A DNA stretch of 28,652 nt from a virus. Both the position numbers and the translations under genes were made by a program. Every line of letters starts with the position of its first letter. The first letter of the stretch is position 1. Positions 22 through 21,161 of this stretch are shown here, piece by piece. The stretch is taken from the IMG/VR virus record IMGVR_UViG_3300031658_003181, positions 1 to 28,652 of that record; one strand, given 5' to 3'. The notes below the pieces were generated by a model, which saw only the letters and a list, made by a program, of their open reading frames with translations, made no database searches and had not been told where the DNA came from.

Positions 22-819
22 ATGAGCAACGTGGCGATAATTGGATATGGATTTTGTGGCAAGGCAACACATAAGATTCTAAAACAAGTAGAAACAATTA
101 ATAGAATACAAATACATGACCCGCAATGGCAGATGTATAAGAAACCCATTACTGATTGGAGGGGTATAGACTATGCATTCATATGTGTGCCTACTCCGAT
201 AACTGACGGCGAACTCAAGTTTAATTATGGTCACATCCTAGATGCTACCGTGGAGATTCCAGAGGGTGTGCAAATTGTTATCCGCAGTACTGTTGGCCCA
301 GAAGCATTGTCCCATACTTGGATTCACTGGCCAGAGTTTCTACGGGAAAGTCATTGGGAACAAGATGCCGAGGATATGTCCATACCAATTATCCTTGGTG
401 GCCACATGAGCGCCGTAAAAAGCAACATGACATCAAAATCGCTCAAAGAAATGAGTGGGTGGTTTCCACACCGCGAAAGTGTAATTCTTACTGGTGCAAA
501 AGAAGCCGCGATTTACAAGTTGTCTAGAAACGCTATGTTGGCCGCAAAGGTTGTCATGTGCAATTATATACACAGTGTATGTAAGGAACAGAATTGTTCT
601 TACAGTGAAGTTGCCAGTATGTTGTTGAACTTTGGTAACCTTGGTAATACTCATATGAGTGTGCCCGGCCCAGATGGCGAACATGGTTTTGGTGGTTCGT
701 GTTTCCCGAAAGACATCTCGCATCTTGCTGGGTTGCAACTAGATTCAAGTCACTACGCGGTTGATAATATTTTTGATGCGGTACTGGAGTGCAATGAGCG
801 ATATCGTAAAACTGTATAA
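22..819 (+). CDS. UDP-glucose/GDP-mannose dehydrogenase-like protein, short form
   Basis: Family role: NAD-dependent two-step oxidation of a nucleotide sugar to its uronic acid. Seen (265 aa): Rossmann loop GYGFCG at residues 8-13, CVPTP at 55-59, RSTVGP at 88-93, PEFLRES at 104-110 (the family's substrate-loop motif), a helix with KLSRN at 166-170, and the catalytic block GFGGSCFPKD with the nucleophile Cys227. The start at 22 is the first ATG; the ribosome site is weak. Full-length enzymes run about 390-450 aa, so this copy ends soon after the catalytic Cys and lacks most of the C-terminal nucleotide-sugar-binding domain. It overlaps the first radical SAM gene by 26 bases, suggesting translational coupling. 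Catalytic competence without the C-terminal domain is uncertain; it may have to work as a dimer or with the second dehydrogenase at 13979. Confidence 0.82.
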   Translation: MSNVAIIGYGFCGKATHKILKQVETINRIQIHDPQWQMYKKPITDWRGIDYAFICVPTPITDGELKFNYGHILDATVEIPEGVQIVIRSTVGPEALSHTWIHWPEFLRESHWEQDAEDMSIPIILGGHMSAVKSNMTSKSLKEMSGWFPHRESVILTGAKEAAIYKLSRNAMLAAKVVMCNYIHSVCKEQNCSYSEVASMLLNFGNLGNTHMSVPGPDGEHGFGGSCFPKDISHLAGLQLDSSHYAVDNIFDAVLECNERYRKTV

Positions 820-2077
820 AGATATTGCAGAAAGAAACAATGCAGTAGGTGATGGGTTTTGTGTTCTCAAGTGGTGGCACTTGGAAATGCATTTGGGTAC
901 TGGCAACTATCATTCTTGTTTTCATTGTCCCCAGCAGAATCTAAAACTCGGTGAAGACATACACAACACCCTTCACAAAATGCAACAACGAAAAACTATG
1001 TTGAGGGGTGGGAGACCCGAAGAATGTTCTTATTGTTGGAAGGCGGAAGATGCGGGTGCTGTAAGCCCTAGAACAACTCTCTCTGCCATATACACTGAGA
1101 TGCAACCAGACATAATAGAAACCACTGCGTCACTGGAGTGGGACGAATATGTTTATCCAAAATATCTGGAGATGAGTTTTTCAAATACATGTCAGATGAA
1201 ATGTTCTTACTGCGCCCCATCATTGAGTTCTACTCTGTTGAAAGAAATTAAAGACATGGGTGCGTACCCATTGAAAGACCCAGAGAGTAGAGGTCAGTAT
1301 GAGTTGAATGGCACGGAAGAACTTTATAAGGATGACAATAACCCCCTAGTCAAAAAGTTCTGGAGTTGGTTTGACACTGCTATAGAACATCTTGACACAC
1401 TACGGATTACTGGTGGCGAACCCTTGTTACACAAAGGTATGTTTGATATGTTGGAGTACTTGAAGAATTCTCCGCATGATATAAACTTCCATGTAAACAG
1501 TAATCTATCAATATCAAACCGTAGAGTTAAACAGACATGTGACCTTCTACCATCAAAGTCTAAAGTGTATGCTAGTGTTGATACATATGGAAAACAGGCA
1601 GAGTGGATTCGACACGGGCTTGATTGGGAACTTTTTGAAGAGAATGTCCTAACGGTCATTGACCACGGAATCCCAATTAGTTTTATGACAACATTTTGTC
1701 TTCTTAGTATACCTAACTTCAAAGACTTCTTGTACTATGTTATACAATTAAAAGACATAGGTGATGTTAAGATAGACACCCCATTTATGACAAACCCACC
1801 TCATTTATCATGTCTTATAATGGATGATAAGATGCGGGATATGCTAGAGGACAGTTACCAATTTATGGTAGAGAATAGTGAATTCAATGAAGCAGAAGTA
1901 ATTAAATTTGAGAGAGTTCTTAAATGGGTTGACAATAATAGGTACACCGGAGAACGCCTAAATAGACACAGGAGAGACTTTAAAACCTTTGTCGATGAAC
2001 ATGATAAACGCAGGGGTAGTAATTGGCACGATGCATTCCCCGAACTAAAATATTTTTATGAGTTATGTGATGTCTGA
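794..2077 (+). CDS. Radical SAM protein with N-terminal twitch domain, copy 1
   Basis: Radical SAM enzymes use a 4Fe-4S cluster to cleave S-adenosylmethionine and make a radical; the substrate here is unknown. Seen (427 aa): an N-terminal Cys domain (Cys23, Cys42, Cys45, Cys78, Cys81, in contexts FCVLKW, SCFHC and CSYC) likely to hold an auxiliary cluster; the radical SAM triad CxxxCxxC at Cys133/137/140; TGGEP at 206-210 (SAM binding); a later NSN strand and IRHGLDW motif; and an FPEL motif near the C-terminus. I chose ATG 794, preceded by TGGAG at 785-789, over an upstream ATG at 761 that would lie deeper in the preceding gene. It is the first of seven paralogues in this region and overlaps copy 2 by 8 bases. 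Confidence 0.88.
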   Translation: MSDIVKLYKDIAERNNAVGDGFCVLKWWHLEMHLGTGNYHSCFHCPQQNLKLGEDIHNTLHKMQQRKTMLRGGRPEECSYCWKAEDAGAVSPRTTLSAIYTEMQPDIIETTASLEWDEYVYPKYLEMSFSNTCQMKCSYCAPSLSSTLLKEIKDMGAYPLKDPESRGQYELNGTEELYKDDNNPLVKKFWSWFDTAIEHLDTLRITGGEPLLHKGMFDMLEYLKNSPHDINFHVNSNLSISNRRVKQTCDLLPSKSKVYASVDTYGKQAEWIRHGLDWELFEENVLTVIDHGIPISFMTTFCLLSIPNFKDFLYYVIQLKDIGDVKIDTPFMTNPPHLSCLIMDDKMRDMLEDSYQFMVENSEFNEAEVIKFERVLKWVDNNRYTGERLNRHRRDFKTFVDEHDKRRGSNWHDAFPELKYFYELCDV

Positions 2078-3476
2078 GAATAAACCCAACGAATACTGGA
2101 TGGAACAACTCAAAGAGAAACGAGAAAAGATTAATTCTATCTCGCCTTCTTTTTGTTCTGCTAAGTGGTTACAGACAACTTTGTATTTGCAGAATGGATA
2201 CAATCATTCTTGTCACCACCCGTCACCACACAAAATCCCTGTTAAAGAAGTGTTGGAAAATCCAGCTGCTCTCCACAACAGCAACTATAAAAAACAACAA
2301 AGAATTAAAATGCTCAATGGTGAAAGACCCAAAGAGTGCGACTACTGTTGGAAGATAGAAGACCAAGGCAAAGACCATTACTCAGACCGACATTACAAAA
2401 CTGCCGATTGGTGGTCGTGGGATAAAGTTGACCTTATCGCAACCAGTAATCCAACTGAAGATGTATACCCATCATACCTAGAAGTATCATTTAGTAATGC
2501 GTGTAATTTTGCGTGTGCTTATTGTTCACCGGAAATCAGTTCTACTTGGATGAAAGATATCGAAGAGAACGGTGACTACCCAGTTAAGTTTGGTTCTGGT
2601 AACTTAGACTATTTGCGTTCAGTTGAAAAGTTCCCATACAAACACTCAGATGCCAATCCATATGTTGATGCGTTTTGGAAATGGTTTCCAGAAGCCCTTC
2701 CCCACTTAAAGGTGTTTCGTGTTACTGGTGGTGAACCAACCATGAGTAAAGATGTTTGGAAAGTTCTGGATTACATATACGAAAATGCACAACCAGAACT
2801 GTCGATTGCAATCAATAGTAACCTTGGCACAGACCCTAGACTTATACAGAGGTTGATTGATGCATGTAACAAACTAGAGGGCAAGGTTAAACAGATTGAG
2901 ATATATACCAGTTGTGAGGCTATCGGTGAACAGGCTGAATACATTCGGGACGGGTTAGATTACAATTACTGGATGGCTAATTGTGAACGGGTGTTATCAG
3001 AGACAAATGCCAATGTTGCTATTATGACAACATTAAATATTTTGAGTATGACAACATTCAATGACTTCATCGAAGACATAATGAAACTAAGAATAACGTA
3101 CAACAAGGATTTGGCGAACAATCGCATACCATTGAGTGTAAACTACTTGCGATTCCCCCCACACCTACAGTGTACGTTGTTAGATATAGACACGAGAATA
3201 TCTTATGCGAATCAATATGAACTCACGGCAAAGAGTTGGTTGAAGTATGACTCACCTGATAAATTTGCAAGAATATACTTGGAAGAATATGACCAGATAC
3301 AGAGGTTCTGTGAATACTTGCGGGGAGAAGATAATACTGCTAAAAAATACAGGGCAGACTTTGTAAATTATATAAAAGCGTATGATATCAGAAGATCGAA
3401 AAACTTTAGCGAAACTTTCCCAGAATACACACATTTATTGGAGGAGTGGAATGTCCAAAAAATACATTCATGTTAA
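2070..3476 (+). CDS. Radical SAM protein with N-terminal twitch domain, copy 2
   Basis: Seen (468 aa from ATG 2070; an in-frame ATG at 2058 would add four residues). N-terminal Cys domain: Cys29 (FCSAKW), Cys48 (SCHHP), Cys90 and Cys93 (CDYCW). Radical SAM triad at Cys145/149/152 (CNFACAYC), VTGGEP around 218-223, then an NSN strand, the YIRDGLDY motif and a C-terminal FPEY. It belongs with copies 1 and 3 in a subgroup where the N-terminal domain carries a single Cys followed by aromatic/His residues instead of the Cys-Cys pair of copies 4-7. Substrate unknown. Copies 2 and 3 share a long N-terminal pattern (HKIP, an NP-A-HN segment, ERP-EC), so they look like a recent duplication relative to the others. 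The 3' end overlaps the 75-residue gene at 3451 by 26 bases. Confidence 0.88.
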   Translation: MSENKPNEYWMEQLKEKREKINSISPSFCSAKWLQTTLYLQNGYNHSCHHPSPHKIPVKEVLENPAALHNSNYKKQQRIKMLNGERPKECDYCWKIEDQGKDHYSDRHYKTADWWSWDKVDLIATSNPTEDVYPSYLEVSFSNACNFACAYCSPEISSTWMKDIEENGDYPVKFGSGNLDYLRSVEKFPYKHSDANPYVDAFWKWFPEALPHLKVFRVTGGEPTMSKDVWKVLDYIYENAQPELSIAINSNLGTDPRLIQRLIDACNKLEGKVKQIEIYTSCEAIGEQAEYIRDGLDYNYWMANCERVLSETNANVAIMTTLNILSMTTFNDFIEDIMKLRITYNKDLANNRIPLSVNYLRFPPHLQCTLLDIDTRISYANQYELTAKSWLKYDSPDKFARIYLEEYDQIQRFCEYLRGEDNTAKKYRADFVNYIKAYDIRRSKNFSETFPEYTHLLEEWNVQKIHSC

Positions 3477-3678
3477 TATGCATAAAATCCGTGCCAACAA
3501 AAAACATGGAACGGATGAACCTGTCCTTACAGTGAAGGAAGGTAGAAAAAATACTTATGGTCACAGGGTAAAGATACACGGGCCGAGTGAAGTTTTGTAT
3601 GGTGGTAATGATAAACCGTTATTGCCATGCGGTGCAAGAGTTGTTATAATGACAGAAGCGGAGATAGAGATTGAGTAA
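3451..3678 (+). CDS. Small conserved hypothetical protein between radical SAM genes
   Basis: Seen: 75 residues starting MSKKYIHVN, basic in the first half, with an HGPS motif, a CGARV segment close to the end and an acidic tail. ATG 3451 follows a strong ribosome site (GAGGAG, 3441-3446) with a four-base gap, so I prefer it over a longer reading from 3382 that would sit inside the preceding gene. The pattern (IHVN near the start, HGPS in the middle, CGARV near the end) matches a short unnamed family I associate with phages and mobile DNA; I know of no assigned function. The alternating hydrophobic pattern suggests a small beta-fold. Its place inside a coupled radical SAM operon makes a partner or substrate role possible, but nothing in the sequence looks like a RiPP leader or core peptide. 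Confidence 0.75.
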   Translation: MSKKYIHVNMHKIRANKKHGTDEPVLTVKEGRKNTYGHRVKIHGPSEVLYGGNDKPLLPCGARVVIMTEAEIEIE

Positions 3679-5173
3679 CGAATTTGATTTAATTAAGTAT
3701 CGAAAGGATATTCTGGATACTAAGTCAGAAAGTTTTTGCGGTGCTAAGTGGTATAATGCAACTACATGGTTGGGAAGTGGTACAACCGCTTCTTGTCATC
3801 ACCCCCCAGCTCACAAAATTCCACTACATGAAATTGCAGTCAACCCATCTGCCATTCATAATACGCAACACAAGAAGGCGATGCGTAAGATGATGCAGAA
3901 TGGAGAACGGCCTCGTGAATGCGAGTATTGCTGGAAGGTCGAAGATATGCCGACTGAAGCTGTTAGTGACCGTGTTTATAAATCAATCATTTATTCAAAC
4001 GATGACTTGCAGAAGGCACAAGATGCCGACTTCAATGATAACACTTTGTTGAAGACTTTTGAGATTGCATTTGACCGGACATGTAACCTTGCTTGTTCTT
4101 ATTGTAATTCTAGTTTCTCCACTACATGGGCAAAGGACATTAAGAAGAATGGCCCGTACCAGAATATGGTATCCGATGGTGCTGCTGCATTTCAACACGA
4201 TGGTGAGTGGGCAGACCCTTATGGAAAGAAACAAGAGAACCCTTATGTAACTGCTTTCTGGGATTGGTGGGATGATGGTCTTTCTAAGAGTCTAGAAGAA
4301 TTGCGTGTTACTGGTGGCGAACCATTGATGTCTGACCAAGTGTGGAAACTTTTTGATTGGTTTCAAAAGAACCCATCCGATATGAGGTTTGCTGTTAATT
4401 CAAACTTGATTGCGAAACCAAGTATCATTGATAAGGTAATAGAAAAGTCTCACGGACTCAAACACTTCCACCTATACACAAGTTGTGAGAGTACAGGCAA
4501 ACAAGCCGAGTATATTCGGGATGGTCTTGATTATGATATGTGGTATAATAATGTAGTTCGATTGATTAAAGAAGGTAACTGCGAAGGCATCAATATAATG
4601 ATGACTGTCAATAGTCTGTGCCTATTTAATATTACCGATTTCCTAGAGGACGTATTTAAACTAAAAGAAATCAACCAGAGTAAGACACCCGTGTTCAGTG
4701 TTAACCTGTTGAGGTTTCCAAGTTTCCAGAGTCCACTGGCATTACCAGACCATATAAAGGATTACCTCAGAAACAAACTATCCGATTGGTATGAAGATAA
4801 CAAGGACAGGGATTACTGGCATGACTTTGAGAAGGCTAGTATTGAGAGGTTGATTGACTACTTAGAAGTTGTTGATGCACCACATAGACGGACTAGTGAC
4901 AAGATGACTCTCTGGCGAGACTTCAAGACCTTCTACGCGCAATATGACACCCGCCGTGGTAAGACTTTGGATGTATTTCCAGAAATCCTTACTGATTGGG
5001 TGGATACTATCCCCGACACCGTAACCGAACAAATCGTACAAATGGTGGATGGTGATAGTACCAGACAGTACGACAATGACCCAGACTTGCAAAAGGTTGC
5101 AGATGAAGAGGGTTGGGTTTTGAAACCCGACAATAAAAACATCGATGAAGCACTAGGTGACTATGACAAGTAG
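3671..5173 (+). CDS. Radical SAM protein with N-terminal twitch domain, copy 3 (TTG start)
   Basis: Seen (500 aa, longest of the array): N-terminal Cys23 (FCGAKW), Cys42 (SCHHP), Cys84 and Cys87 (CEYCW); radical SAM triad Cys138/142/145 (CNLACSYC); VTGGEP at 213-218; NSN strand; YIRDGLDY; VFPE near residue 435. After that motif, where most copies end, it carries about 60 extra acidic residues. The start is TTG 3671: no in-frame ATG occurs before the conserved FCGAKW block, GAGATAGAGA lies just upstream, and the eight-base overlap with the previous stop matches the overlaps elsewhere in this run. It is closest in pattern to copy 2. Substrate unknown. Confidence 0.87.
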   Translation: MSNEFDLIKYRKDILDTKSESFCGAKWYNATTWLGSGTTASCHHPPAHKIPLHEIAVNPSAIHNTQHKKAMRKMMQNGERPRECEYCWKVEDMPTEAVSDRVYKSIIYSNDDLQKAQDADFNDNTLLKTFEIAFDRTCNLACSYCNSSFSTTWAKDIKKNGPYQNMVSDGAAAFQHDGEWADPYGKKQENPYVTAFWDWWDDGLSKSLEELRVTGGEPLMSDQVWKLFDWFQKNPSDMRFAVNSNLIAKPSIIDKVIEKSHGLKHFHLYTSCESTGKQAEYIRDGLDYDMWYNNVVRLIKEGNCEGINIMMTVNSLCLFNITDFLEDVFKLKEINQSKTPVFSVNLLRFPSFQSPLALPDHIKDYLRNKLSDWYEDNKDRDYWHDFEKASIERLIDYLEVVDAPHRRTSDKMTLWRDFKTFYAQYDTRRGKTLDVFPEILTDWVDTIPDTVTEQIVQMVDGDSTRQYDNDPDLQKVADEEGWVLKPDNKNIDEALGDYDK

Positions 5174-6479
5174 GCTCAACATTAACGGGTCTGGGTTTTG
5201 TACTGCGCCATGGACACACACTTACGTTTCTCCTCAAGGGGAGAGGCGACTGTGTTGTGCCAGTAGAGAAGAAGCTAAATTCCAAAAACAATATTTGGAT
5301 AGTGGTACTAAGAAAGGCAAGTTTGAACCAGAGACATTAGAAGAACACTGGAACAGTGATTATATGAAAGACATTCGCAAGAGAATGTTGGCCGGTGAAA
5401 AACTAAAAGAATGTGAAGTATGCAATGACCAAGTTTTAAATCTACATACTTACAGGAAGTATTTTACTGAGACATTGTTTCCACACAAGGTGGAAGATAT
5501 AATCGCCAATACTGCGATGGATGGCACTTATAGTGACCTCCCAGTTTCATATGACTACCGCATATCTAATCTATGCAACTTTAAATGCCGCATGTGCGGA
5601 GAACAACTTTCGTCTAGTTGGGAGGCAGAGAAAAAGAAACATAATCTCATTGATGTTAAACAAGACCCTTGGATGGAACCCACTAATAGAAAGAAGATAA
5701 CCAATTTCCAAGAAGAAGTATTGGAAGTGGAATTGCAGAGGGCTGTTGATAATAAGACGATAGAAGAAATCTATTGGGTTGGCGGTGAACCATTGATGTG
5801 GGAACGTCATTGGACTATCATGCAACAGTTGGTAGACAATGGTCACTCGAAAAATGTCACCATCCGTTATAATACAAATCTGAGCCGTGTCAAGTATAAA
5901 GACTATAACTTGTGGGACATGTTGCCACACTTCAAGAATGTTAACATATGTGCCAGTATTGATGGTGCGTATGATGTCGGTGAATATATCAGAGATGGGT
6001 TGGTATGGAGTGAGTGGATAGAGAACTTTAAATCGGGTATGTTTCTCATTGACCAATTTGGTGATGATGCATTGGTGCTTGATGTAACACTAACTACGCC
6101 GGGATTATTTCATCTCAAACAGATGTTTGATGTTGCTAGGTCACTTGATGTAAAATCGTACTTCAAGTTCACTTATGCATTCGACCCCAGTGTTGTCATG
6201 TCACCTTTCTGTTTACCTAAAAATATTCTTGAACCATTGGTAAATGATTTACTGGAATACATTGAACCCAACCTAACATGGAAGACTAAGGTGTATAAAG
6301 AATCATTGGTGAGTCTAATAAATAGAGAGTCGTTTGATGAACAATGGCCGAACTCATATAAAGATGGACTTAAACGTGGTAAAGAGTTTCAAGTTTATCT
6401 AGATGATTTGAGAAATACTAAATTGAAATTCGTGGATACACTTCACGGAGATGCTGTGGATTGGTGGGATAGAATATGA
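5163..6479 (+). CDS. Radical SAM protein with N-terminal twitch domain, copy 4
   Basis: Seen (438 aa from ATG 5163; GTG 5157 is an alternative two codons upstream). The N-terminal domain has Cys13 (FCTAPW), the pair Cys31-Cys32, then Cys84 and Cys87; this Cys-Cys arrangement defines the second subgroup (copies 4-7). Radical SAM triad Cys138/142/145 (CNFKCRMC), VGGEP at 206-210, an asparagine strand (YNTNLS), an SIDG motif and YIRDGL. The C-terminus departs from the other copies: it lacks the FPE motif and ends DWWDRI. The overlap with copy 3 (11 bases) and with copy 5 (4 bases) implies translational coupling. Substrate unknown. Confidence 0.87.
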   Translation: MTSRLNINGSGFCTAPWTHTYVSPQGERRLCCASREEAKFQKQYLDSGTKKGKFEPETLEEHWNSDYMKDIRKRMLAGEKLKECEVCNDQVLNLHTYRKYFTETLFPHKVEDIIANTAMDGTYSDLPVSYDYRISNLCNFKCRMCGEQLSSSWEAEKKKHNLIDVKQDPWMEPTNRKKITNFQEEVLEVELQRAVDNKTIEEIYWVGGEPLMWERHWTIMQQLVDNGHSKNVTIRYNTNLSRVKYKDYNLWDMLPHFKNVNICASIDGAYDVGEYIRDGLVWSEWIENFKSGMFLIDQFGDDALVLDVTLTTPGLFHLKQMFDVARSLDVKSYFKFTYAFDPSVVMSPFCLPKNILEPLVNDLLEYIEPNLTWKTKVYKESLVSLINRESFDEQWPNSYKDGLKRGKEFQVYLDDLRNTKLKFVDTLHGDAVDWWDRI

Positions 6480-7708
6480 GTAAAACATTTTGTCCTTTGC
6501 CTTGGAATCACTTAGCAACCCATCCTCATGGGATATGCACCCTGTGTTGCGAATCAAACCAAGACGATGGTATATCACAAGCCTTTAATGATACGAAGAA
6601 TGATGCCTTCCGTAATGCATTGACACTACAGACGGTTGAAGATTTCTCTGAGATTACAAACTCCGATAGTTTTAGTAAAGTTAGATTGCAGATGCTCAAT
6701 GGCGAAAAACCTATTGAGTGTAACAAGTGTTGGGATGCGGAAAGTGTAGGGAATAAAAGTAAACGGTATTACGAGAGTCGCCGACTTCCATTGACGTTGG
6801 AAGAGGCAATAGAAAATACAAATGATGATGGTACACTCAAGGAAGTTAACTATGAGTTTGTAGAACTGCGACTAGGCAATCATTGTAATGTCCAGTGCCG
6901 AACATGCAATCCATATTCGAGTTCTCGTTGGTTAAAAGATTGGGATACGGTAAATCCAGAAAGACGGTCTCTCCCAGAGTTTACGAGAGTAAGTAGTTTT
7001 AACTGGCCCTTGGATGAAGATTTCTGGACTAAGTTATTGGATAGAAGTGGTAACCTAAAGTGCCTGTATATCAATGGTGGTGAACCCTTTCTCATAGACA
7101 AACATTTTGCATTCTTAGAGACATTGGTTGAACGGGGAATCGCAAAGGATGTTGAGATAGTATATTCTACCAACTGTACAATTATTAACCATTCATACGA
7201 AGACATATGGAAGAACTTTAGAAAGGTTCAGTTTATGTTATCGATTGATGACCTTGAAGAAAGGAACGAGTACATCAGAACATACACCGCATGGGGAAAG
7301 GTGTTGTCGTTTGTTGAGTGGATGGATGAGATATGCGGCAAGTATGATAACTTGGATTATAACATATTACAAACGGTGTCGGTATATAACATTTTATACA
7401 TCCCAGAGTTCTACGAATATTTCAAGGGGTTTCATATAAGTCACAACTTTGTAAATGACCCTGCTCACTTTGACCCGTTGATACTACCACGGGATGTGCA
7501 AGAAATAATTGTAGATAGAATCGGTGACCTTACAGATGATGTTGCGAATTACTTAAATGTGAAAAGAAAACAAGGGGACATTTCGGTTGCTAATCTTTCG
7601 CCACTGCAAACCTTTTTTGAAAAGACCAGAACTATGGACACAATGAAAAAGACTTCATTTGAGGATACGTTCCCAGAACTTTATGAGTTGATAAAAAATT
7701 ATGAGTGA
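6476..7708 (+). CDS. Radical SAM protein with N-terminal twitch domain, copy 5
   Basis: Seen (410 aa): Cys6 (FCPLPW), Cys21, Cys24-Cys25, Cys82 and Cys85 (CNKCW) in the N-terminal domain; radical SAM triad Cys137/141/144 (CNVQCRTC); NGGEP at 200-204; an STN strand; an SIDD motif where copies 4 and 6 have SIDG; and a C-terminal DTFPEL. The start ATG overlaps the TGA of copy 4 (ATGA). The first residue of the usual TGGEP motif is Asn here, Val in copy 4 and Ala in copy 6; GGEP, which is the SAM-contacting part, is intact in all. Substrate unknown. Confidence 0.87.
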   Translation: MSKTFCPLPWNHLATHPHGICTLCCESNQDDGISQAFNDTKNDAFRNALTLQTVEDFSEITNSDSFSKVRLQMLNGEKPIECNKCWDAESVGNKSKRYYESRRLPLTLEEAIENTNDDGTLKEVNYEFVELRLGNHCNVQCRTCNPYSSSRWLKDWDTVNPERRSLPEFTRVSSFNWPLDEDFWTKLLDRSGNLKCLYINGGEPFLIDKHFAFLETLVERGIAKDVEIVYSTNCTIINHSYEDIWKNFRKVQFMLSIDDLEERNEYIRTYTAWGKVLSFVEWMDEICGKYDNLDYNILQTVSVYNILYIPEFYEYFKGFHISHNFVNDPAHFDPLILPRDVQEIIVDRIGDLTDDVANYLNVKRKQGDISVANLSPLQTFFEKTRTMDTMKKTSFEDTFPELYELIKNYE

Positions 7709-8921
7709 TAGAAAGAATATATGTATGTTGCCGTGGGTTCATCTACACACATGGCCGAATGGAAATGTCTACCCATGTTGTTTAACCCCAATGGAACATA
7801 TTGCTGGCAATCTGAACGAGAATAGTTTGGAAGAGATATACAACAGTGATTTAATAAAAGACATTCGGGTTAAGATGATAGATGATGAAAGACCAGAACC
7901 CTGTAATCGATGTTACCACCATGAAGATGCTGGTGGCATGTCAATGCGACATAGAGCAAACACTAGTTGGTCTAAATACGAACACATGATTGATGAGACC
8001 AAAGAGGACGGTACGGTAGAAGAAATGAAACTACCATACTGGGACTTTAGGTTTTCTAATATCTGCAATTTCAAATGTCGTAGTTGTGGCCCTCAGTTGA
8101 GTACTGGTTGGTATCCTGATATTAAGAAGATTGCTGTCATGGAAACTGGTAGGTCTTTCCTACCCGATGATATTCCAAAGAACAATAAGTTTGATTTGTG
8201 GGAACAGATAGAACCATACTTTGAAGATGTCGAAGAGATATACTTTGCCGGCGGCGAACCTCTTATAATGGAAGAACACTATCGCATTCTAAAAAAACTT
8301 GATTCGATGGGGAGACATGATGTTTTGTTGCGATACAATACAAACTTCAGTGAGATGCGATATAAAGATTTGCATGTGTTGGAGTTCTGGCCCAAGTTTA
8401 AAAATGTAGAAGTTGGTGCAAGTATTGACGGCATGGGCGAGGAGGGTGAGTTCATCCGCAGTGGATTTAGTTGGCAACAATTTAAAGACAACAGAACTAA
8501 AATGAAACAGACATGCCCTCATGTAAACTTTTATGTGAGTAGTACAATCAGTATTCAGAATGCCTATCATATAGTGCCATTCCACCATAAACTTGTTGAG
8601 GGTGGATGGATTGATAGTTATAATTCGTTCAATGTTAACATTGTCACCGAACCAAACCATCTTGATATAAGAATTTTACCACAACATCATAAAGTTAAAT
8701 TAGAGAAACTTTACCAAGAACACATTGACATGTTATCCGATGTAGGTGATTGGTCTGCAAAACAGGGGTTCGATAGTTTGAAAAACCATTTGATGCAAGA
8801 TATCGAAACTGCCGGAGAACATCTTGAAGTGTTCAAATACAAGATGAAACAAGTTGACAAGATACGAGAAGAAAACTTTTCGGAAACTTTCCCAGAGATG
8901 AGTGATTTGTATGGGCTTTAA
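7701..8921 (+). CDS. Radical SAM protein with N-terminal twitch domain, copy 6
   Basis: Seen (406 aa): the most canonical copy of the array. The N-terminus reads ICMLPWVHLHTWPNG, then Cys26-Cys27, GNLNENSLEEIYNSD and Cys68/Cys71 (CNRCY) followed by HEDAGG, the usual signature of N-terminal-twitch radical SAM proteins. Radical SAM triad Cys122/126/129 (CNFKCRSC), AGGEP at 183-187, YNTNFS, ASIDG, FIRSGF and a C-terminal ETFPEM. It overlaps copy 5 by eight bases and the next gene by eleven. Substrate unknown; related domains elsewhere act on peptides or small molecules, so no reaction is claimed. Confidence 0.88.
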   Translation: MSDRKNICMLPWVHLHTWPNGNVYPCCLTPMEHIAGNLNENSLEEIYNSDLIKDIRVKMIDDERPEPCNRCYHHEDAGGMSMRHRANTSWSKYEHMIDETKEDGTVEEMKLPYWDFRFSNICNFKCRSCGPQLSTGWYPDIKKIAVMETGRSFLPDDIPKNNKFDLWEQIEPYFEDVEEIYFAGGEPLIMEEHYRILKKLDSMGRHDVLLRYNTNFSEMRYKDLHVLEFWPKFKNVEVGASIDGMGEEGEFIRSGFSWQQFKDNRTKMKQTCPHVNFYVSSTISIQNAYHIVPFHHKLVEGGWIDSYNSFNVNIVTEPNHLDIRILPQHHKVKLEKLYQEHIDMLSDVGDWSAKQGFDSLKNHLMQDIETAGEHLEVFKYKMKQVDKIREENFSETFPEMSDLYGL

Positions 8922-10074
8922 AGAAACCAAGACACGGGACGCTGATGATTATTTCTTTGACGAAAGTTACTCTGCTGATAGTTTTTTGATGTCAGCAAAA
9001 CCGATGTTAAATAAGATTATTGTGATTCGGTTATGTAATTCAAGGGATAGTAGTGTAGAACCATTTGATATGAAAATACAACTAGATGATAATCCAGCTG
9101 TTGATTTGTGGTATCAGAGATTTAAATATGAGTTAAAGTCGGAAGCCTTTTTCAGAAAAGAACATGTGTTTATGGGTGAGAGTACTCTCACTACAGAGGA
9201 AATGATTGGTCGGGTCAATACCACATTAGACCATATATCCAAGTTTGACTTTGTTGCCGAACAGTGGTCACGGTGGCATGACTTTGTTGCTGCAGACCAG
9301 ACAAATGTTATTGACCACCCCATCAGTGAGAACCCAGACATATCCGTTAGATTGACAATGGAAGATTTTGCGGGTGGCAATGATAACAAAAAAATGAATA
9401 TTGTTCATAACTACTTCCCCCTTCTTAGCGGCCCGGCCCTCAAAACCGCCGCATATATGTACATAGCTACAGATAGTATTAAGGCGAGTATCATGCGTTT
9501 GAACTTAGAGGTTCACGAACTCCATACTACCTTACAGAATGATAGTGATGCGCCGGAAGACTTTAATATGCATCTCAATATATCATGGCAACGGGCTCCA
9601 AAACATCTACCGTCATTGCCAGATTGTTTCAATGAATTGTTTACACCATACAATAAGTTTGGTGATGTGCTGTTGGGGTTTCCACAAGTTGGCAAGACTC
9701 ACATAGAGGCATACGCAGAAGAAGACGAAGAATTAGAAGATGAACACATCGAACCTATTAAGTTTTTAGCCGGAGACATGTTAATAAAATTATCAACTGA
9801 TATGGATGATAATTGGGTGGATGGATTTCATGCGTGGTTGGTTGAACAGGGATTAGACCCAAATGACCCAGCTGGAAGATATGGGTTTGCGAAACTTGGT
9901 CGGGTTGTAGACTGTGATTTGGAATATGTGCGTAACAGTATATCGGGTAAGTATGATGACATAGATAAGATAACTATTACAGACCCACTCGCCGGAGATG
10001 AAGAATATCACTACCCATATAGTAGATTTGATGATAATTACAAGGAGAAGTTTTTGGAGTATTTAAATGACTGA
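8911..10074 (+). CDS. Hypothetical protein embedded in the radical SAM array
   Basis: I do not recognise this 387-residue protein. ATG 8911 is preferred to GTG 8902 because it gives the shorter overlap and GAG/AGTGA lies just upstream. Seen: no signal peptide or membrane span; a mixed alpha/beta composition; acidic stretches around 268-282 (EEDEELEDEHIE) and at the C-terminus. Residues 256-263 (GFPQVGKT) fit the Walker A pattern GxxxxGK[ST], but no convincing Walker B follows, so a P-loop ATPase is not supported. It sits between copies 6 and 7 of the radical SAM proteins with overlaps on both sides, so it is very probably co-translated with them and may be a partner, substrate or structural protein acted on by them. 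That role is inference from position only. Confidence 0.7.
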   Translation: MGFKETKTRDADDYFFDESYSADSFLMSAKPMLNKIIVIRLCNSRDSSVEPFDMKIQLDDNPAVDLWYQRFKYELKSEAFFRKEHVFMGESTLTTEEMIGRVNTTLDHISKFDFVAEQWSRWHDFVAADQTNVIDHPISENPDISVRLTMEDFAGGNDNKKMNIVHNYFPLLSGPALKTAAYMYIATDSIKASIMRLNLEVHELHTTLQNDSDAPEDFNMHLNISWQRAPKHLPSLPDCFNELFTPYNKFGDVLLGFPQVGKTHIEAYAEEDEELEDEHIEPIKFLAGDMLIKLSTDMDDNWVDGFHAWLVEQGLDPNDPAGRYGFAKLGRVVDCDLEYVRNSISGKYDDIDKITITDPLAGDEEYHYPYSRFDDNYKEKFLEYLND

Positions 10075-11251
10075 TACGATATGCGTGTTGCCTTGGGTAC
10101 ATACCGAATTCACTACAGACGGAACATCAAACCCATGTTGTTTGTATCGCGCTGAACCAATGGGAGATCTGAAATCGGAGAATTTCCTAGATGTTTGGAA
10201 TGGGGAAAACTATACCAATCTAAGAAAAGAATTTCTTGCAGGGGGGAAACCAAAAGGTTGTTCTCAGTGCTGGGAAGGTGAAGAAGCTGGATATCAATCA
10301 AAACGATTGCAGGACAATAAACGGTTTGCAAAACAGTTTGATGAAATAACGGAAACTCGGAACTTTATTGCTACCGATACACCAAAGTATCTTGACTTGA
10401 AATTTGGTACTTTGTGTAATCTGAAGTGCCGAACATGCGGCAGTATTAATAGTTCAAATTGGCAAACTGATGAGAAGAAGTTATATGGTAGAATTCTAAA
10501 CAAAAAAGACCCATTGTGGATTGTTAAAAACCCAACGGTGTGGGATGAACTGTTTGAAATTATGCCATTGGTGGAACAAATGGATTTCACAGGTGGTGAA
10601 CCATTTATGATAGCAGAACACTTTGACTTGTTGCGAAGAGTCGTGGAGTCTGGCCATGCCCATCATGTATCGTTGCATTATAACACAAATGGAACTATTC
10701 GCCCATCACAAGAGATATTCGATTTATGGGAACAGTTTAAGTCGTGTGAAATAATGTTTAGTCTCGATGGAATATATGAGAAATTTGAATACATGCGACA
10801 CCCAGCAAAATGGGATGAAGTCTGGAACAATTACAACCACTTCAAATCGATAGATTGGATGCATGTACAAGTTTGTCATACGGTAAGTATTTACAATGTT
10901 TATTACTTAGAAGAGTTTATAGAAAAGTTTGGCAGAGAAAACATATACCTTAACTTGTTGCATTTCCCTAGGGCCTATTGCGTTAGGAATATGCCAGATA
11001 AAGTAAAAGAACGGGTTGCTCAGAGACTTATAAATATCCCTGACATGGAAGACATAATTTCTTTTATGAATCAAGAACCACATTACGATAAATTAGACCT
11101 TGGGTTTTTGTCCGTGACTGAAAAACTGGACGAAATAAGAAGTGAAAATTTCAGTGAATGCTTTTCAGAATTTTATAGGATATTGGTAGATGGCGGAATC
11201 AACGAAGAACCTTGGGTCGTTAGAGAATACTTTAGACCAGTTAGTCAGTGA
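10067..11251 (+). CDS. Radical SAM protein with N-terminal twitch domain, copy 7
   Basis: Seen (394 aa): Cys6 (ICVLPW), Cys24-Cys25, Cys65/Cys68 (CSQCW) followed by GEEAG; radical SAM triad Cys117/121/124 (CNLKCRTC); TGGEP at 175-179; YNTNGT; SLDG; and a C-terminal ECFSEF that degenerates the FPE motif of its relatives. It overlaps the upstream unknown gene by eight bases. Its 3' end overlaps the next gene by 62 bases, the largest overlap in this run. With copy 6 it shares the ICxLPWVH start, so these two look closest. Substrate unknown. Confidence 0.87.
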   Translation: MTDTICVLPWVHTEFTTDGTSNPCCLYRAEPMGDLKSENFLDVWNGENYTNLRKEFLAGGKPKGCSQCWEGEEAGYQSKRLQDNKRFAKQFDEITETRNFIATDTPKYLDLKFGTLCNLKCRTCGSINSSNWQTDEKKLYGRILNKKDPLWIVKNPTVWDELFEIMPLVEQMDFTGGEPFMIAEHFDLLRRVVESGHAHHVSLHYNTNGTIRPSQEIFDLWEQFKSCEIMFSLDGIYEKFEYMRHPAKWDEVWNNYNHFKSIDWMHVQVCHTVSIYNVYYLEEFIEKFGRENIYLNLLHFPRAYCVRNMPDKVKERVAQRLINIPDMEDIISFMNQEPHYDKLDLGFLSVTEKLDEIRSENFSECFSEFYRILVDGGINEEPWVVREYFRPVSQ

Positions 11252-12926
11252 GGTTTCTGGTCTCAGAAGTGAACTGGCAGATTTAAAAAGAATCAACACC
11301 AGTGTCTTGAATAAACATTTGGTGCGGAAGGGGTCTGAGAGAGAACAACATTATATCTTCTTTGATAAGGTGAGTCAACAGTATGATCTCGACGATTCGA
11401 TAACATGGCCTGCGTGTAATGGTTCTGCCCATCCAGCATCAAATGGCGTTTTTGAAAACATCACTAACGTCATTGGTTATTATCAAAACGTAGACTGGCC
11501 TTTCAAAGTATGTGATATTTCAACTTTCGATCCACCCAGCAGACACAAAGAAACCAATAATCTTTACTTCTTAGAACCCCAGTTTATATTTACTGAGGCT
11601 TGGTCAGATTGTCTTGCAACGCTTTCGCCCGATGTAGTGGGATACCTACAAAACAGGCAAATGGCATTAGTACTGTGGTTTCCGCACGAAGGAATGAATT
11701 TTCATACTGGATTTAACGCCGTGGGTTGGATGCACCAGTTCCACTTGCAGATGAAGGAACACAATTTAGAAAATTGCATTGCGTATTTTGTGTTTGGTGA
11801 CCTTGAGTGCCAACGCAATTATGACGAGTGGTTCAAACACCAAGGTGCCGGACGGACAGATTTCCGATTTGAAAGGGTAATTTCTTATGACTATTTTCAC
11901 AGGGAGTATTGGACTGAGTACTCAGAAAGAACTGGAGTCTTTATAAACAGAACCCACGATATAGATTACATGTCCGCCGAAGCTTATGGTAACTCTGAAC
12001 TTATCGGTGCATTTAATGACTCTGTGTGTATTCCATACGAACACTTTGACCCACAGTTGTTAATACACTCGCCAAACCCTTCAATTCAGAATTCATATGA
12101 AGGATGCCAAACAGATGAGGTTCTCGTGGGAGTTCCACATGGCCACGAAAAGACAAAAGACTTGGTGTGTTTGAATGCACGACCAAGGTCACATAGACCG
12201 GCCCTTGTTTCTGAATTGCATAGGTTGGGATATAACAATGATAATTCTTATGTGAGTTACCTTAATAGAAATGATATGCCAAACATCGACTGTACAGAAC
12301 ATCCAGTAGAGAATCCTTGGAAAGAAAATATGTACAATGGAAGTGATATAACACAATTCACTGCCAGAAATAATGGATCCTTTGTTTGTTTTCTATCACA
12401 CGATGTTCAAATTGAATATCTGTATAAATTCTGGTTGAATAGAGACACTGTTATTGCAGACGCAACAACTGCACAGGTTAACCAAGATGACAGGTTAATG
12501 ACTACGAGTATGTACAAGGATTCGTTTTTCAGTCTTGTCTCAGAAACACTTTTCAGCGATGACCCACATTCGTTGTTCATCACAGAGAAAACATATAAAT
12601 GTATTGCTTACAGACACCCATTCATGGTTGTTGGTAGTGTGGGTACACTGCGATATCTTAGGCATCTTGGTTATGAAACCTTCCCAGAAATGTTTGATGA
12701 AAGTTATGATAATGAACGTGACCTCAAGAAACGGTTTGCTATCATTGTTAGCAACCTAGAACAATGGCATCAATTAACGCACGAAGAAAAGGTCGAGAAG
12801 TACAATAGTGTTAGACCTAAACTGTTACGCAACTTTCAACTATTTAAAAACTCGATTGGGACATTTGAACGGGATACGGTAAACGTGTTGGGTCAGTTGT
12901 CCTCTCATGGTGTTGAGATTCATTAG
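11190..12926 (+). CDS. Glycosyltransferase-like protein with N-terminal coiled coil
   Basis: Seen (578 aa): residues about 8-40 form heptads of Leu/Val (LENTLDQLVSEVSGLRSEL), probably a coiled coil or oligomerisation helix. The last third contains SETLF, then ITEKTYK, HPFMVVG, LRHLGYETF and DESYD. This serial pattern is seen in nucleotide-sugar-dependent transferases of the fucosyltransferase/exostosin type, where the Glu-Lys segment contacts the donor. No signal peptide. The start ATG 11190 overlaps copy 7 by 62 bases; I see no other in-frame ATG close downstream, and the coiled coil supports this start. The next gene shares the same C-terminal pattern. Donor and acceptor are unknown; it could glycosylate a phage structural protein or extend a surface sugar chain. 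Confidence 0.62.
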   Translation: MAESTKNLGSLENTLDQLVSEVSGLRSELADLKRINTSVLNKHLVRKGSEREQHYIFFDKVSQQYDLDDSITWPACNGSAHPASNGVFENITNVIGYYQNVDWPFKVCDISTFDPPSRHKETNNLYFLEPQFIFTEAWSDCLATLSPDVVGYLQNRQMALVLWFPHEGMNFHTGFNAVGWMHQFHLQMKEHNLENCIAYFVFGDLECQRNYDEWFKHQGAGRTDFRFERVISYDYFHREYWTEYSERTGVFINRTHDIDYMSAEAYGNSELIGAFNDSVCIPYEHFDPQLLIHSPNPSIQNSYEGCQTDEVLVGVPHGHEKTKDLVCLNARPRSHRPALVSELHRLGYNNDNSYVSYLNRNDMPNIDCTEHPVENPWKENMYNGSDITQFTARNNGSFVCFLSHDVQIEYLYKFWLNRDTVIADATTAQVNQDDRLMTTSMYKDSFFSLVSETLFSDDPHSLFITEKTYKCIAYRHPFMVVGSVGTLRYLRHLGYETFPEMFDESYDNERDLKKRFAIIVSNLEQWHQLTHEEKVEKYNSVRPKLLRNFQLFKNSIGTFERDTVNVLGQLSSHGVEIH

Positions 12927-13982
12927 ATGTCTAGGTATTGGTCTAAGGGGGCAGATATAAAAAGTGGTAGCGTTCATATCACGGAATTTGAACGTGTGTT
13001 TGTTAAAGAATTACAACTACAAATGCCAAGTGATTGCGTTTTGGTAAATTCTACATGGTTTTCTCTCCCAGAAAATGTAGAAGATATGAAACAATGGTTA
13101 AGTCCCATGATAGATACAGATGGGCCTTTTCATCCAAAAGTGTTATTGTACTCTGGCATGGATTGGGAAAATGAGACATGCGTGGAAACAGCGAGACAGG
13201 CGCATCTGTGGTTGCGAAAACACTTTCAAGTAATTGACATTGGTAATACTGGTAAAGGTCATTATTTTAGTTTCTGGATGTCTTTTATTCACAAACACCT
13301 TGACACCTTCTTTGATCCGTGTTATACTGAGATACCACGGATCAGGAAATACTTCATGTGTTTGAATCACCAACCGCATGCTCACCGCATCCAATTGCTT
13401 AATCTATTTCACCGAATCGGTTGGTTTAAGAAGGCCATTATTTCTGCTGTGATACCACACGAGGAATATGATTTTCCAAATCCTGTCATCCTCAAGGAAA
13501 ACAGAGACCCCCGTATCATGGAGAAAGCCATGCCTTGGGAGATTGTCAACGAGAACCACCTAGCGAATGATATCATTTCTCTTGGTGATCCTATTTACTG
13601 GAACTCTCATTTTTGTACCGTTATCACGGAGAGTGTTTTGCACAGTGATGTGTTTTTGAGTGAAAAGACTTTTAAACCAATGATAGGATTGAGACCGTTT
13701 ATTATTTATGGTGATGTTGGGATAAATGCGAAACTCAAGGAACTTGGGTTCGATACGTTTGAAGACTTATTCCCGTTATCGCATAGAACAGACTTCAACA
13801 TCCCTAGTGACCGCCACCTGTTCATTAAAGATGACCTCCTAAATCTAATGAATAAATATACCATTGAAGATTTAGAGGATTTGTATCGTAGTTTGGAAGA
13901 CAGGTTAATGCATAACAGAAAACGAGTTCTTGAGGTTATAAATGAGAACTACACAGCAATCACGGAGATTAGTAAATTATGA
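12927..13982 (+). CDS. Glycosyltransferase-like protein, shorter paralogue
   Basis: Seen (351 aa): no coiled coil. The C-terminal part carries VITESVL, LSEKTFKP, RPFIIYG, LKELGFDTFEDLFP and a final helical segment, the same order of motifs as in the gene just upstream, so the two are paralogues. The initiator ATG directly follows the TAG of the upstream gene with no gap. Such short SEKTFKP proteins are common in marine phage genomes and are usually left unnamed. A nucleotide-sugar transferase is the best guess from the motif pattern and from the adjacent UDP-sugar dehydrogenase. A consensus sigma70-type promoter lies inside this gene (13300-13328). Confidence 0.58.
   Translation: MSRYWSKGADIKSGSVHITEFERVFVKELQLQMPSDCVLVNSTWFSLPENVEDMKQWLSPMIDTDGPFHPKVLLYSGMDWENETCVETARQAHLWLRKHFQVIDIGNTGKGHYFSFWMSFIHKHLDTFFDPCYTEIPRIRKYFMCLNHQPHAHRIQLLNLFHRIGWFKKAIISAVIPHEEYDFPNPVILKENRDPRIMEKAMPWEIVNENHLANDIISLGDPIYWNSHFCTVITESVLHSDVFLSEKTFKPMIGLRPFIIYGDVGINAKLKELGFDTFEDLFPLSHRTDFNIPSDRHLFIKDDLLNLMNKYTIEDLEDLYRSLEDRLMHNRKRVLEVINENYTAITEISKL
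13300..13328 (+). promoter_or_regulatory. Possible internal sigma70 promoter
   Basis: TTGACA at 13300-13305, a 17-base spacer and TATACT at 13323-13328, reading in the direction of the operon. It could raise expression of the dehydrogenase and downstream carbamoyltransferase genes. It lies inside a coding region, so chance is possible; the match to consensus (-35 perfect, spacing perfect, five of six in the -10) is nevertheless strong. Confidence 0.4.
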
Positions 13983-15121
13983 CAAAAATTGGTTTTATTG
14001 GGTTTGGAAAACTGGGCAAACCTTGCGCTGAGGTCATTGCAAAAAAAGGTTTCTCGGTTGATGTTTATGACACATCAGATGTTACTAGTCAGTGGTGTAC
14101 TGTCACCGATTCAATTGAAGCGTGTGTCAAAGATAAGACATTTGTTTTTGTGGCAGTACCTACTCCGCATGACCCAGCTTACGATGGTTCAACGCCAACA
14201 AATCATTTGCCGCCTAAAGATTTTAATTATGATACCGTAAAAGAAGTTGTTGCAGAAGCAAACGCGCATATGTACGACTACCAGACGTTGGTTCTCATTA
14301 GTACCGTATTGCCTGGCACTGTTAGACGAGAGGTAGTTCCTCTTATTACAAATACCAAGTTTATTTACAACCCATACTTGATTGCTATGGGAACTGTTGC
14401 GTGGGATATGGTAAATCCAGAAATGGTAATGATAGGCACAGAAGATGGGCTAGAGTCACCAGAATCACACGAACTCATGTACTTCTATAATCAGATTATG
14501 GAAAATGAACCCAGATATGAAGTGGGTACTTGGGATGAGTGTGAGTGTATTAAGGTGTTCTATAATACATTCATTAGTGCCAAGATTGGTCTTGTAAATA
14601 TGATACAGGATGTTGCAGAGAGACAGGGCAACATTAATGTTGATGTTGTTGCCAATGCCTTGCGAGATAGTGGTCAAAGAATCATGGGCCCAAGTTATAT
14701 GAAGCCTGGAATGGGTGATGGTGGTGCTTGTCACCCGCGAGATAATATCGCACTTAGGCACATGGCGCAAGAATTGAATTTGGGGTATGACCTATTTGCT
14801 GAAATAATGAAAGCCAGAGATATACAAGCACAGAATATGGCCAACGCGATTACCAAACATGGAAATAGAATTGCCTTTACTTCAGACTCATATAAACCAG
14901 ATGTACCATACACAAATGGTAGTTATAGTTTATTAGTACAGTTTTATGTATCATCACAGAGGAAACATTGGGTGGTTACTATGAACGATAGTCCAGATGT
15001 TATAGTAAAGGTACACGCAACCGATATCATACCAGAGGATTTCGCAGGAATCATATTTGACCCTTGGAGAACCGAATCTGGTGAAAATGTAATTCGATAC
15101 GGAGACACTAGAAATGGATAA
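13979..15121 (+). CDS. UDP-glucose/GDP-mannose 6-dehydrogenase family protein
   Basis: Family role: NAD-dependent oxidation of a nucleotide sugar to the uronate. Seen (380 aa): GFGKLGKP at residues 8-15, VPTP at 60-63, LPPKDFNYD at 77-85, STVLPGT at 108-114, NPYLIAMG at 131-138, KVFYNTFISAK at 192-202 (family Lys and Asn), and GDGGACHPRD with catalytic Cys251 and Asp255. Length is close to that of a full enzyme, unlike the short copy at position 22, so this is the better candidate for an active dehydrogenase. The ATG overlaps the TGA of the glycosyltransferase-like gene, which supports a shared sugar pathway. Confidence 0.85.
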   Translation: MTKIGFIGFGKLGKPCAEVIAKKGFSVDVYDTSDVTSQWCTVTDSIEACVKDKTFVFVAVPTPHDPAYDGSTPTNHLPPKDFNYDTVKEVVAEANAHMYDYQTLVLISTVLPGTVRREVVPLITNTKFIYNPYLIAMGTVAWDMVNPEMVMIGTEDGLESPESHELMYFYNQIMENEPRYEVGTWDECECIKVFYNTFISAKIGLVNMIQDVAERQGNINVDVVANALRDSGQRIMGPSYMKPGMGDGGACHPRDNIALRHMAQELNLGYDLFAEIMKARDIQAQNMANAITKHGNRIAFTSDSYKPDVPYTNGSYSLLVQFYVSSQRKHWVVTMNDSPDVIVKVHATDIIPEDFAGIIFDPWRTESGENVIRYGDTRNG

Positions 15122-15269
15122 AGAACAGAAATCTTGGCATCAAAAAAACATCGATGAACAGAAAGATATTGCCTCTAAAAGAGAAGCCGTAGAGAAAGCA
15201 AAGAAGGAGAAGGAACTAGACCGCAAATTGAAAAAGATGCGAGAACGAGACCCCTTTATTTATGACTAG
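15114..15269 (+). CDS. Small highly charged helical protein
   Basis: Seen: 51 residues from ATG 15114 to TAG 15269, rich in Lys, Glu and Arg and probably one long helix; it starts MDKEQKSWHQ and ends RERDPFIYD. GGAG at 15101-15104 precedes the start. It overlaps the dehydrogenase stop by eight bases and the next start by eight bases, exactly the overlap style of its neighbours, so it is very likely a real gene although short. No domain recognised. Confidence 0.68.
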   Translation: MDKEQKSWHQKNIDEQKDIASKREAVEKAKKEKELDRKLKKMRERDPFIYD

Positions 15270-16227
15270 ATTAGTTGGATATGGATGTTCTAATACTGCC
15301 GGTGATGAGTTAACAGACCACTTGATTCTTAAAACAACTGCACAAAAACTGGATATGGTCAAGAGAGAAATCAGGGGTGATAGGAACCTCGAGCGATTGT
15401 TTCTGCATCAGTCGCAGCCAGGCGGCAGCGTCCAGACGGTATGGGAATACCTGTACCACCACTTTGGGTTTCAATATGACCCCCGTTTAGACGGAATGGG
15501 TATCACTGACCCATACGCCTGGCAGTCAGTTGATACCGCTGATGATTGGGCATCTAAGTTCCCAATGCAAGTGGAACCCTATAGTCGTTCTTTGACTTGG
15601 GTTAGACATTTAGCTGAACATGGCGGATACACCCAATATATGAACAGGGGTCAAGGTGGCGGTTCGGTGGAAATGTGTCTTTATTATTTACAAACAGACC
15701 TAATGAGTGGAGCGGTGAATCCGGCAGAAGACAAGATTGTCGTGCAAGTACCACACCCATACAGGTGGTTGGGTATGGACTTTGATGGAGACACATACAC
15801 CATCCGCCCCAATGACTTAATGTATAAGACTCCGATTGACCCCAAACAACCAGACGAATTGAACTTCTATACGGTAAGTTATAGATACTGCACTGCACTC
15901 AAACATCTGAAAATGTTGGGTGCCGAGTTATTCTTTATACATCAATCACCACAAGCACTAAGAAGGGATGTGCTAGAAGACAATCCGGTTGGGTTGAGCA
16001 GTGGCCCATACTCCGGCAGTTTGCCATATCGTTTGGTACAACATCAATGGGAGTGGGTATTCGATAATGCGGTTGATTATAATAAGGATCTGCCAACCGC
16101 AGATATCAGTGGCAACTCAGAACGAGGCGCTGAGGGAAGCGTACATGGAGGTGGTCATTATATTGCCGAGTTGCAGAAAGAAATTGGGATGAGTTTATCG
16201 CAGATGCCTCAGCTGAGGGCGGCATAG
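15262..16227 (+). CDS. SGNH-hydrolase-like protein, copy 1
   Basis: Family role: esterase or acyltransferase, often deacetylating or acetylating sugars. Seen (321 aa): an N-terminal block GYGCSNTAGDEL with Ser10 in the nucleophile position (G-x-S-x-T-x-G-x-E-L), an NRGQGGGS block in the middle matching the Asn/Gly oxyanion blocks, and a late HGGGHY at about 295-300 that could provide the catalytic His. The overall order is that of SGNH enzymes, but the spacing is unusual and I cannot place the Asp with certainty. A second gene of this type lies at 18130. Neighbours (sugar dehydrogenase, carbamoyltransferase) suggest a carbohydrate substrate. Confidence 0.6.
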   Translation: MTRLVGYGCSNTAGDELTDHLILKTTAQKLDMVKREIRGDRNLERLFLHQSQPGGSVQTVWEYLYHHFGFQYDPRLDGMGITDPYAWQSVDTADDWASKFPMQVEPYSRSLTWVRHLAEHGGYTQYMNRGQGGGSVEMCLYYLQTDLMSGAVNPAEDKIVVQVPHPYRWLGMDFDGDTYTIRPNDLMYKTPIDPKQPDELNFYTVSYRYCTALKHLKMLGAELFFIHQSPQALRRDVLEDNPVGLSSGPYSGSLPYRLVQHQWEWVFDNAVDYNKDLPTADISGNSERGAEGSVHGGGHYIAELQKEIGMSLSQMPQLRAA

Positions 16228-20872: not shown

Positions 20873-20897
20873 CATTTGCTTGGATATGAGGTATTAT
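20869..20897 (+). promoter_or_regulatory. Strong sigma70 promoter of the tmRNA
   Basis: TTGACA at 20869-20874 (overlapping the nuclease stop), a 17-base spacer and TATTAT at 20892-20897. It places a start near 20904, right before the tmRNA acceptor half. It is immediately followed by a late-promoter octamer (20902-20909), so the RNA can probably be made both early and late. Confidence 0.78.
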
Positions 20898-20901
20898 ACC
20901 T

Positions 20902-20909
20902 TATAAATA
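20902..20909 (+). promoter_or_regulatory. T4-type late promoter (TATAAATA)
   Basis: Exact TATAAATA octamer, the -10-only element used by T4-type late transcription (gp55/gp33/sliding clamp), in an intergenic position five bases after the sigma70 -10 box. gp33 is encoded at 22701 in this window, so the machinery is plausibly present. It would start RNA near 20915, just upstream of the tmRNA acceptor piece. Confidence 0.6.
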
Positions 20910-21144: not shown

Positions 21145-21161
21145 TCGCTCGGGGTTCTTGA

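Follow-up and report, generated by a model that had tools for sequence, protein, structure and literature searches.

A conserved array of seven N-twitch radical SAM genes in a T4-like marine phage, with a likely role in glycan modification

Why would a marine phage encode seven radical S-adenosylmethionine (SAM) enzymes side by side? The question is raised by IMG/VR virus record IMGVR_UViG_3300031658_003181, analysed here from position 1 to 28,652 (the whole stretch, 28,652 bases, hereafter the window). Its gp32-, gp59-, PhoH- and exonuclease-like genes mark a fragment of a large T4-like marine myovirus. An initial annotation, made from the letters alone, had noted the seven genes and taken them as a sign that a compact phage genome is under strong selection for a pathway of several steps or several substrates. 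The premise of compactness was wrong, because the window is a 28.7 kb fragment and the contigs of its close relatives are 137 and 161 kb long. The genes themselves form a conserved multi-enzyme cassette, for which a glycan role is likely, if unproven.

All seven proteins belonged to the N-twitch family, as defined by the NCBIfam profile NF033640 (N_Twi_rSAM, twitch domain-containing radical SAM protein; curated cut-off 170 bits). The genes, all on the plus strand, are position 1 (761–2077, ATG at 794; 303.9 bits), position 2 (2058–3476; 332.6 bits), position 3 (3671–5173; 304.0 bits), position 4 (5157–6479; 333.0 bits, with SPASM and Radical_SAM also above cut-off), position 5 (6476–7708; 344.0 bits), position 6 (7701–8921; 405.3 bits) and position 7 (10067–11251; 365.8 bits). 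The profile (1–398) was nearly fully covered, and E-values between 1.8e-90 and 2.9e-121 exclude membership by chance. In the alignment, four N-terminal twitch cysteines (C8, C27, C68 and C71 of the position 6 protein), the CxxxCxxC triad (C122/C126/C129 in the same protein) and the GGEP motif were invariant in 7/7. None of the seven was decayed, and the seven distinct genes with triad, GGEP and N-terminal cysteines are thus as first described.

The interruptions were also as described. A 74-aa phage protein (phrog_8676; 3454–3678, plus strand), probably incidental, stands between positions 2 and 3, and a 390-aa accessory protein without family match (8902–10074, plus strand) between positions 6 and 7. 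The latter had homologues in four relatives (L012, L013, L019, L069) and was absent from the array of another (L011). Adjacent genes overlapped by 4–62 bases along the whole array. The genes from 22 to 19292 share one strand and overlap at almost every boundary, and so read as one translationally coupled operon. Promoter and terminator counts in the window were no higher than in shuffles.

To follow the array into other phages we queried IMG/VR with single proteins, the seven-member alignment being too divergent to serve as query. Position 2 alone retrieved 58 viral loci. In the 30 relative records counted, N-twitch members were mostly 5–8 per record, in some 1–4 and in a few 10–19. Both CxxxCxxC and GGEP were present in 283 of the 297 full-length relatives, ruling out, together with the intact motifs of the seven, that the array is decayed. 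A split member, with one TGA, was seen in a single relative (G020). A 66 kb viral contig (G025, L091–L093) had 19 N-twitch matches, and an 851-aa reading frame made of two fused N-twitch units occurred twice (G017:C1:3595-6102 and G016:C1:154566-157073).

The window genes were 44–88% identical to their orthologues in other phages and 22–37% identical to their own paralogues. In a 69-row tree every array position was a clade. Support was 100/94 for position 1 (with L012_2246 and L018_8683), 94/94 for position 2 (100/98 without L028), 100/100 for position 3, 100/99 for position 4, 100/100 for the main set of position 5, 95/95 for position 6 and 100/99 for position 7 (with L023 and L024). Identities and trees together rule out a recent duplication of the array genes.

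Gene order was conserved in part. The order 1-2-3-4-5-6-7 was found in the window and in L012, 1-2-3-4-5-x-x in L018, 2-3-4-5-x-x in L064, 2-3-6-4-5-7 in L023 and 2-3-7'-4-5-6 in L019 and L020. The relative order 2-3-4-5 was kept in most arrays, with swapped flanks and with positions 6 and 7 shuffled or lost. Exceptions were L028, with 5 before 4, and L024, without both 4 and 5 in the stretch read. The ratio of nonsynonymous to synonymous substitution rates (dN/dS) against L012 was about 0.03–0.09; because dS was near saturation, only its direction, purifying, is safe. The expansion of the family predates the divergence of these phages, and the family has been retained since.

These data bear on the idea that local duplication produced the array as a mostly redundant or selfish expansion, without a seven-step pathway behind it. 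Such an expansion would suit a copy number ranging from 1 to 19 and the unstable flanking positions 6 and 7. It sits badly with the gap between paralogue and orthologue identities, the kept core order, the strong purifying selection and the intactness of nearly all copies. Already disfavoured, it is in our view very improbable. Old, non-redundant paralogues, purifying selection and orthologous positions kept across divergent phages together support the selection for several steps or substrates that the initial annotation proposed.

What the pathway acts on is suggested by the genes around the array. The first gene of the operon (22–819, plus strand) encodes a UDP-glucose/GDP-mannose dehydrogenase-like protein (PF00984, E 5.7e-12), and in L011 and L012 its orthologue immediately precedes the array. 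Downstream, on the same strand, there were two proteins of one family, a probable glycosyltransferase of the FITEKTxKPI family (11190–12926; no Pfam or PHROG match) and a probable GT-B-like glycosyltransferase (12927–13982), falling in one cluster of 11 loci. The model of the second (pLDDT 71.6) had as best PDB folds nearly all GT-B enzymes, all with E above 0.01, a weak match by which both are probably, but not firmly, glycosyltransferases. They are followed by a UDP-glucose dehydrogenase-like protein (13979–15121; phrog_9148, E 1e-87; PF00984, 7.7e-17) and a NodU/CmcH-type carbamoyltransferase (16715–18142; PF16861, 6.5e-50; PF02543, 2.6e-39), the latter present in 15/20 N-twitch array records. 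The array thus shares its operon with sugar-handling genes, namely those of the UDP-glucose-dehydrogenase-like proteins and of the carbamoyltransferase. Between and after these lie two SGNH-hydrolase-like proteins of one cluster (15262–16227, with a GCS...G motif read from the translation and no database support, and 18130–18996) and a possible 2-oxoglutarate-Fe(II) oxygenase (16227–16718), read from an H.D...H pattern and without family match. PDB profile searches with the family of the 390-aa protein, with clusters 2 and 3 and with the SGNH-like families gave nothing usable.

In related phages the neighbours again pointed to sugars. In L012 a nucleoside diphosphate (NDP)-sugar epimerase/dehydratase (PF16363, 6.3e-38) lies within the array, flanked by positions 3 and 4, and in L082 a methyltransferase lies between positions 6 and 7. 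Slots between array genes in relatives also hold a P-loop kinase-like protein. In other lineages (L023, L024, L042, L050, L054, L065) the array comes directly after tail-fibre/collar genes, two glycogenin/GT8-like proteins and a further conserved family whose sequence reads as glycosyltransferase-like. An island of tail-fibre and glycosyltransferase genes beside the array was seen in L023, L024, L042, L050 and others. A-type Fe-S carrier genes were found in the three nearest relatives examined; these fit a heavy Fe-S demand, and an earlier T4-like genome with 12 radical SAM genes (PMC5332604).

Three side observations concern genes upstream of N-twitch genes in phages. One phage contig encodes, just upstream of an N-twitch gene, a GT7-type galactosyltransferase fused to a laminin-G/pentaxin lectin domain (L057:13220-14734). 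A near-complete relative has two minus-strand genes upstream of its array (L089:7880-11197), one with an NTNTN-rich repeat, which are possibly a curli-like module known from pelagimyophages. A fatty acid desaturase gene lies upstream of the array operon in relative G004 (L089:11267-11995).

The family was not restricted to phages. We found it in 73/241 Bdellovibrionota-like genomes, a phylum label inferred from one metagenome-assembled genome (MAG); within 20 kb these genomes can carry as many as nine N-twitch genes (L121). Among the neighbours of the bacterial clusters, 27/121 were further radical SAM proteins and 7/121 were family 2 glycosyltransferases (GT2), compared with at most 1/121 for each in control regions from the same genomes (p 2e-8 and 0.03, respectively); the control figure is a maximum, since it is drawn from the top 25 families. 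A chromosomal homologue of position 2 was found at one locus only, on a short MAG contig, the wider family being found by profile. The chromosomal clusters L117–L130 were a mixture, on alternating strands, of N-twitch genes with GT2 genes and with radical SAM genes of other kinds.

Can structure tell the substrate? The AlphaFold model of the position 4 protein (pLDDT 87.1, pTM 0.85) showed a TIM-barrel radical SAM core and an N-terminal helical/twitch domain. Its best PDB fold match was BlsE, followed by CteB, SkfB, SuiB, viperin and GDGT-MAS, each at a low overall TM-score. The nearest sequence profiles were GDGT-MAS, BlsE, the BtrN twitch domain and viperin, and in a profile alignment the N-terminal domain aligned with the auxiliary twitch domain of BtrN (E 2.5e-4, marginal). 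BtrN is an aminocyclitol dehydrogenase and BlsE a sugar-nucleoside decarboxylase. Because the fold and profile matches are spread over sugar, nucleotide and peptide enzymes, the choice between these substrates would be made by gene context and not by fold. As for single families, membership in QueE was ruled out on score, and viperin was rejected because its profile NF038283 gave at most 26.1 bits for a cut-off of 180.

A second alternative is a role in protection or host takeover through modified nucleotides or DNA/RNA bases, whether as hypermodified DNA, viperin-like nucleotides or a BlsE-type sugar-nucleoside. BlsE as best fold match and the weak viperin profile matches would agree with it, as would T4 alpha-glucosyltransferase among the fold matches of the 12927–13982 protein and the presence of QueC near bacterial arrays. 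The viperin scores are far below cut-off, however, the operon yielded no gene dedicated to nucleotide modification, and the same clusters occur with GT2 on bacterial chromosomes that are not phage-like. We regard a nucleotide product as improbable.

The main rival is modification of peptides or proteins by epimerisation, crosslinking or C–H oxidation, the target being a protein of the virion, for instance the tail fibre, or of the host, instead of a small free precursor. Most twitch/SPASM radical SAM enzymes modify peptides, a point in its favour, and it also draws on weak matches to StsB, AlbA, SkfB, SuiB and CteB and on the arrays located directly downstream of tail-fibre genes in several lineages. 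What speaks against it is that no dedicated precursor gene was found, the overlapping array genes leaving no room for one. The only small genes were those of the widespread 74-aa phage protein and of a 51-aa protein; the room for a counterpart of the latter is limited to about 100 bases in L012 and L013. A PqqD/RRE domain was absent from the Pfam matches of all seven proteins, and the arrays are accompanied by sugar genes, not by peptidases or exporters. A protein target is therefore unlikely in our estimate, although less so than a nucleotide product. A classical system for ribosomally synthesised and post-translationally modified peptides (RiPPs) was rejected, both for the missing precursor gene and for the missing PqqD/RRE domain. 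So was the 74-aa protein as a RiPP precursor, its homologues being found in phages in which tblastn searches for N-twitch genes found nothing.

We slightly favour, over all other explanations combined, a pathway in which sugars destined for a surface or virion glycan are modified by radical chemistry, one step after another; its substrate class, reaction types and biological purpose we infer. The seven non-redundant enzymes would cooperate with the nucleotide-sugar dehydrogenases, the carbamoyltransferase and the glycosyltransferase-like proteins of the same transcript in making or reshaping an unusual glycan. Every enzyme would carry two clusters, a [4Fe-4S] cluster that cleaves SAM and an auxiliary one in the twitch domain, and the 5′-deoxyadenosyl radical would abstract a hydrogen at a defined carbon of a nucleotide-linked or polymer-bound sugar. 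The step might end in an oxidation, epimerisation, deoxygenation or C–C/C–O change beyond the reach of ordinary NAD-dependent sugar enzymes, with different array positions serving different sugar positions or different residues. The product would most likely alter the surface polysaccharide of the infected cell, for superinfection exclusion or escape from receptor trapping, or else decorate the virion or tail fibre.

The proposal is supported by the intactness of all seven genes, the orthologous positions, the core order 2-3-4-5, the co-operonic sugar genes and, weakly, the GT-B-like neighbour. It also builds on the epimerase inside the L012 array, the methyltransferase in L082, the tail-fibre/GT8 neighbours in other lineages, the enrichment of radical SAM and GT2 genes in bacteria, the weak BtrN/BlsE matches, the A-type carriers and the islands of pelagimyophages (PMC7029224). 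Several points weigh against it. The sugar substrate is a prediction from gene context. The fold matches of the position 4 model span only the radical SAM core (TM-score 0.24–0.46 for radical SAM entries), and the RiPP maturases CteB, SkfB and SuiB match it at E-values similar to that of BlsE. A low-confidence model underlies both glycosyltransferase calls next to the array. In the lineage of the window the array adjoins the replication-side genes PhoH, exonuclease, gp59 and gp32, with no tail fibres beside it. Finally, some phages keep a single N-twitch member, which, at least, can therefore work alone.

Radical SAM enzymes do difficult C–H chemistry, and the N-twitch family is large and common in ocean phages and Bdellovibrionota-like bacteria. 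An ordered orthologous core kept by divergent phages is strong evidence for a multistep product, probably a modified glycan deciding phage–host recognition or superinfection. More tentatively, phages and Bdellovibrionota-like bacteria might share a new class of radical glycan tailoring, in which sets of N-twitch enzymes and glycosyltransferases successively rewrite the sugars of surface or virion glycans; to our knowledge, radical chemistry on such a scale is not known in any polysaccharide pathway. The core 2-3-4-5 offers a small testable set for explaining the radical SAM richness of marine T4-like phages.

The remainder of the window is of T4-like character. The operon is followed on its 3′ side by PhoH-like (a reading of the translation), exonuclease, cell-wall hydrolase, gp59-like helicase-loader and gp32-like genes. 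The gp32 was nearest to that of Methylophilales phage Melnitz and of T4-like cyanophages (51–54%). At about 20865–21235 we found a permuted two-piece transfer-messenger RNA (tmRNA) of alphaproteobacterial type, with the tag AEDNFAHENYAIAA. This type also occurs in Melnitz-like marine phages, and phages carrying it are able to infect other hosts (PMC9004378), so that it does not fix the host. An eighth radical SAM gene, of the B12 type (24779–26293), lies apart from the array, beside the gp32 gene. Its protein was weakly similar to PhpK-family and lipid B12-binding radical SAM enzymes and almost without relatives among phage isolates.

How much of this was known? The initial annotation had allowed for arrays that are common and already functionally assigned in related phages. 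Common they are, being frequent in relatives and often larger than in the window; an assignment did not emerge. In the literature searched, which left subscription papers mostly outside, we found neither a functional study of the N-twitch family nor a published account of N-twitch arrays with ordered orthologues, or of bacterial clusters with GT2. Published already are the radical SAM richness of marine T4-like phages and radical SAM cassettes in host-recognition islands. An enrichment in radical SAM, RmlD and glycosyltransferase genes has been described for Tasman Sea viromes (PMC7150976).

Compared with NF033640, the array proteins are members by score, domain order and cysteines; the ordered array and its company of sugar genes are absent from the family description. 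In BtrN the auxiliary twitch domain is C-terminal, whereas in the array proteins it is N-terminal. The SPASM RiPP maturases SkfB, SuiB and CteB have in common with the array proteins a radical SAM core and an auxiliary Cys domain, with a weak fold match, but the array differs from them in its N-terminal auxiliary domain and in having no precursor gene and no RRE. Vibrio phages KVP40 and K566 encode distant radical SAM relatives (22–29% identity). Three of these are close together in K566, whose six N_Twi matches do not form an ordered array of the window type. The T4-like marine phage TARA_ERS488813_N000010 has 12 radical SAM genes and an A-type Fe-S carrier (Nishimura 2017, PMC5332604); the passage on this phage counts them within Fe-S genes and describes no arrays, orthology or glycan context. 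The host recognition cluster of pelagimyophages is a hypervariable island combining tail fibres with GT8 glycosyltransferases and with radical SAM cassettes, the last not analysed further in the passages on it (Zaragoza-Solas 2020, PMC7029224), and a UDP-glucose dehydrogenase is listed among the lipopolysaccharide-related genes of these phages. That cluster lies between tail genes, whereas the array in the window stands beside the replication module.

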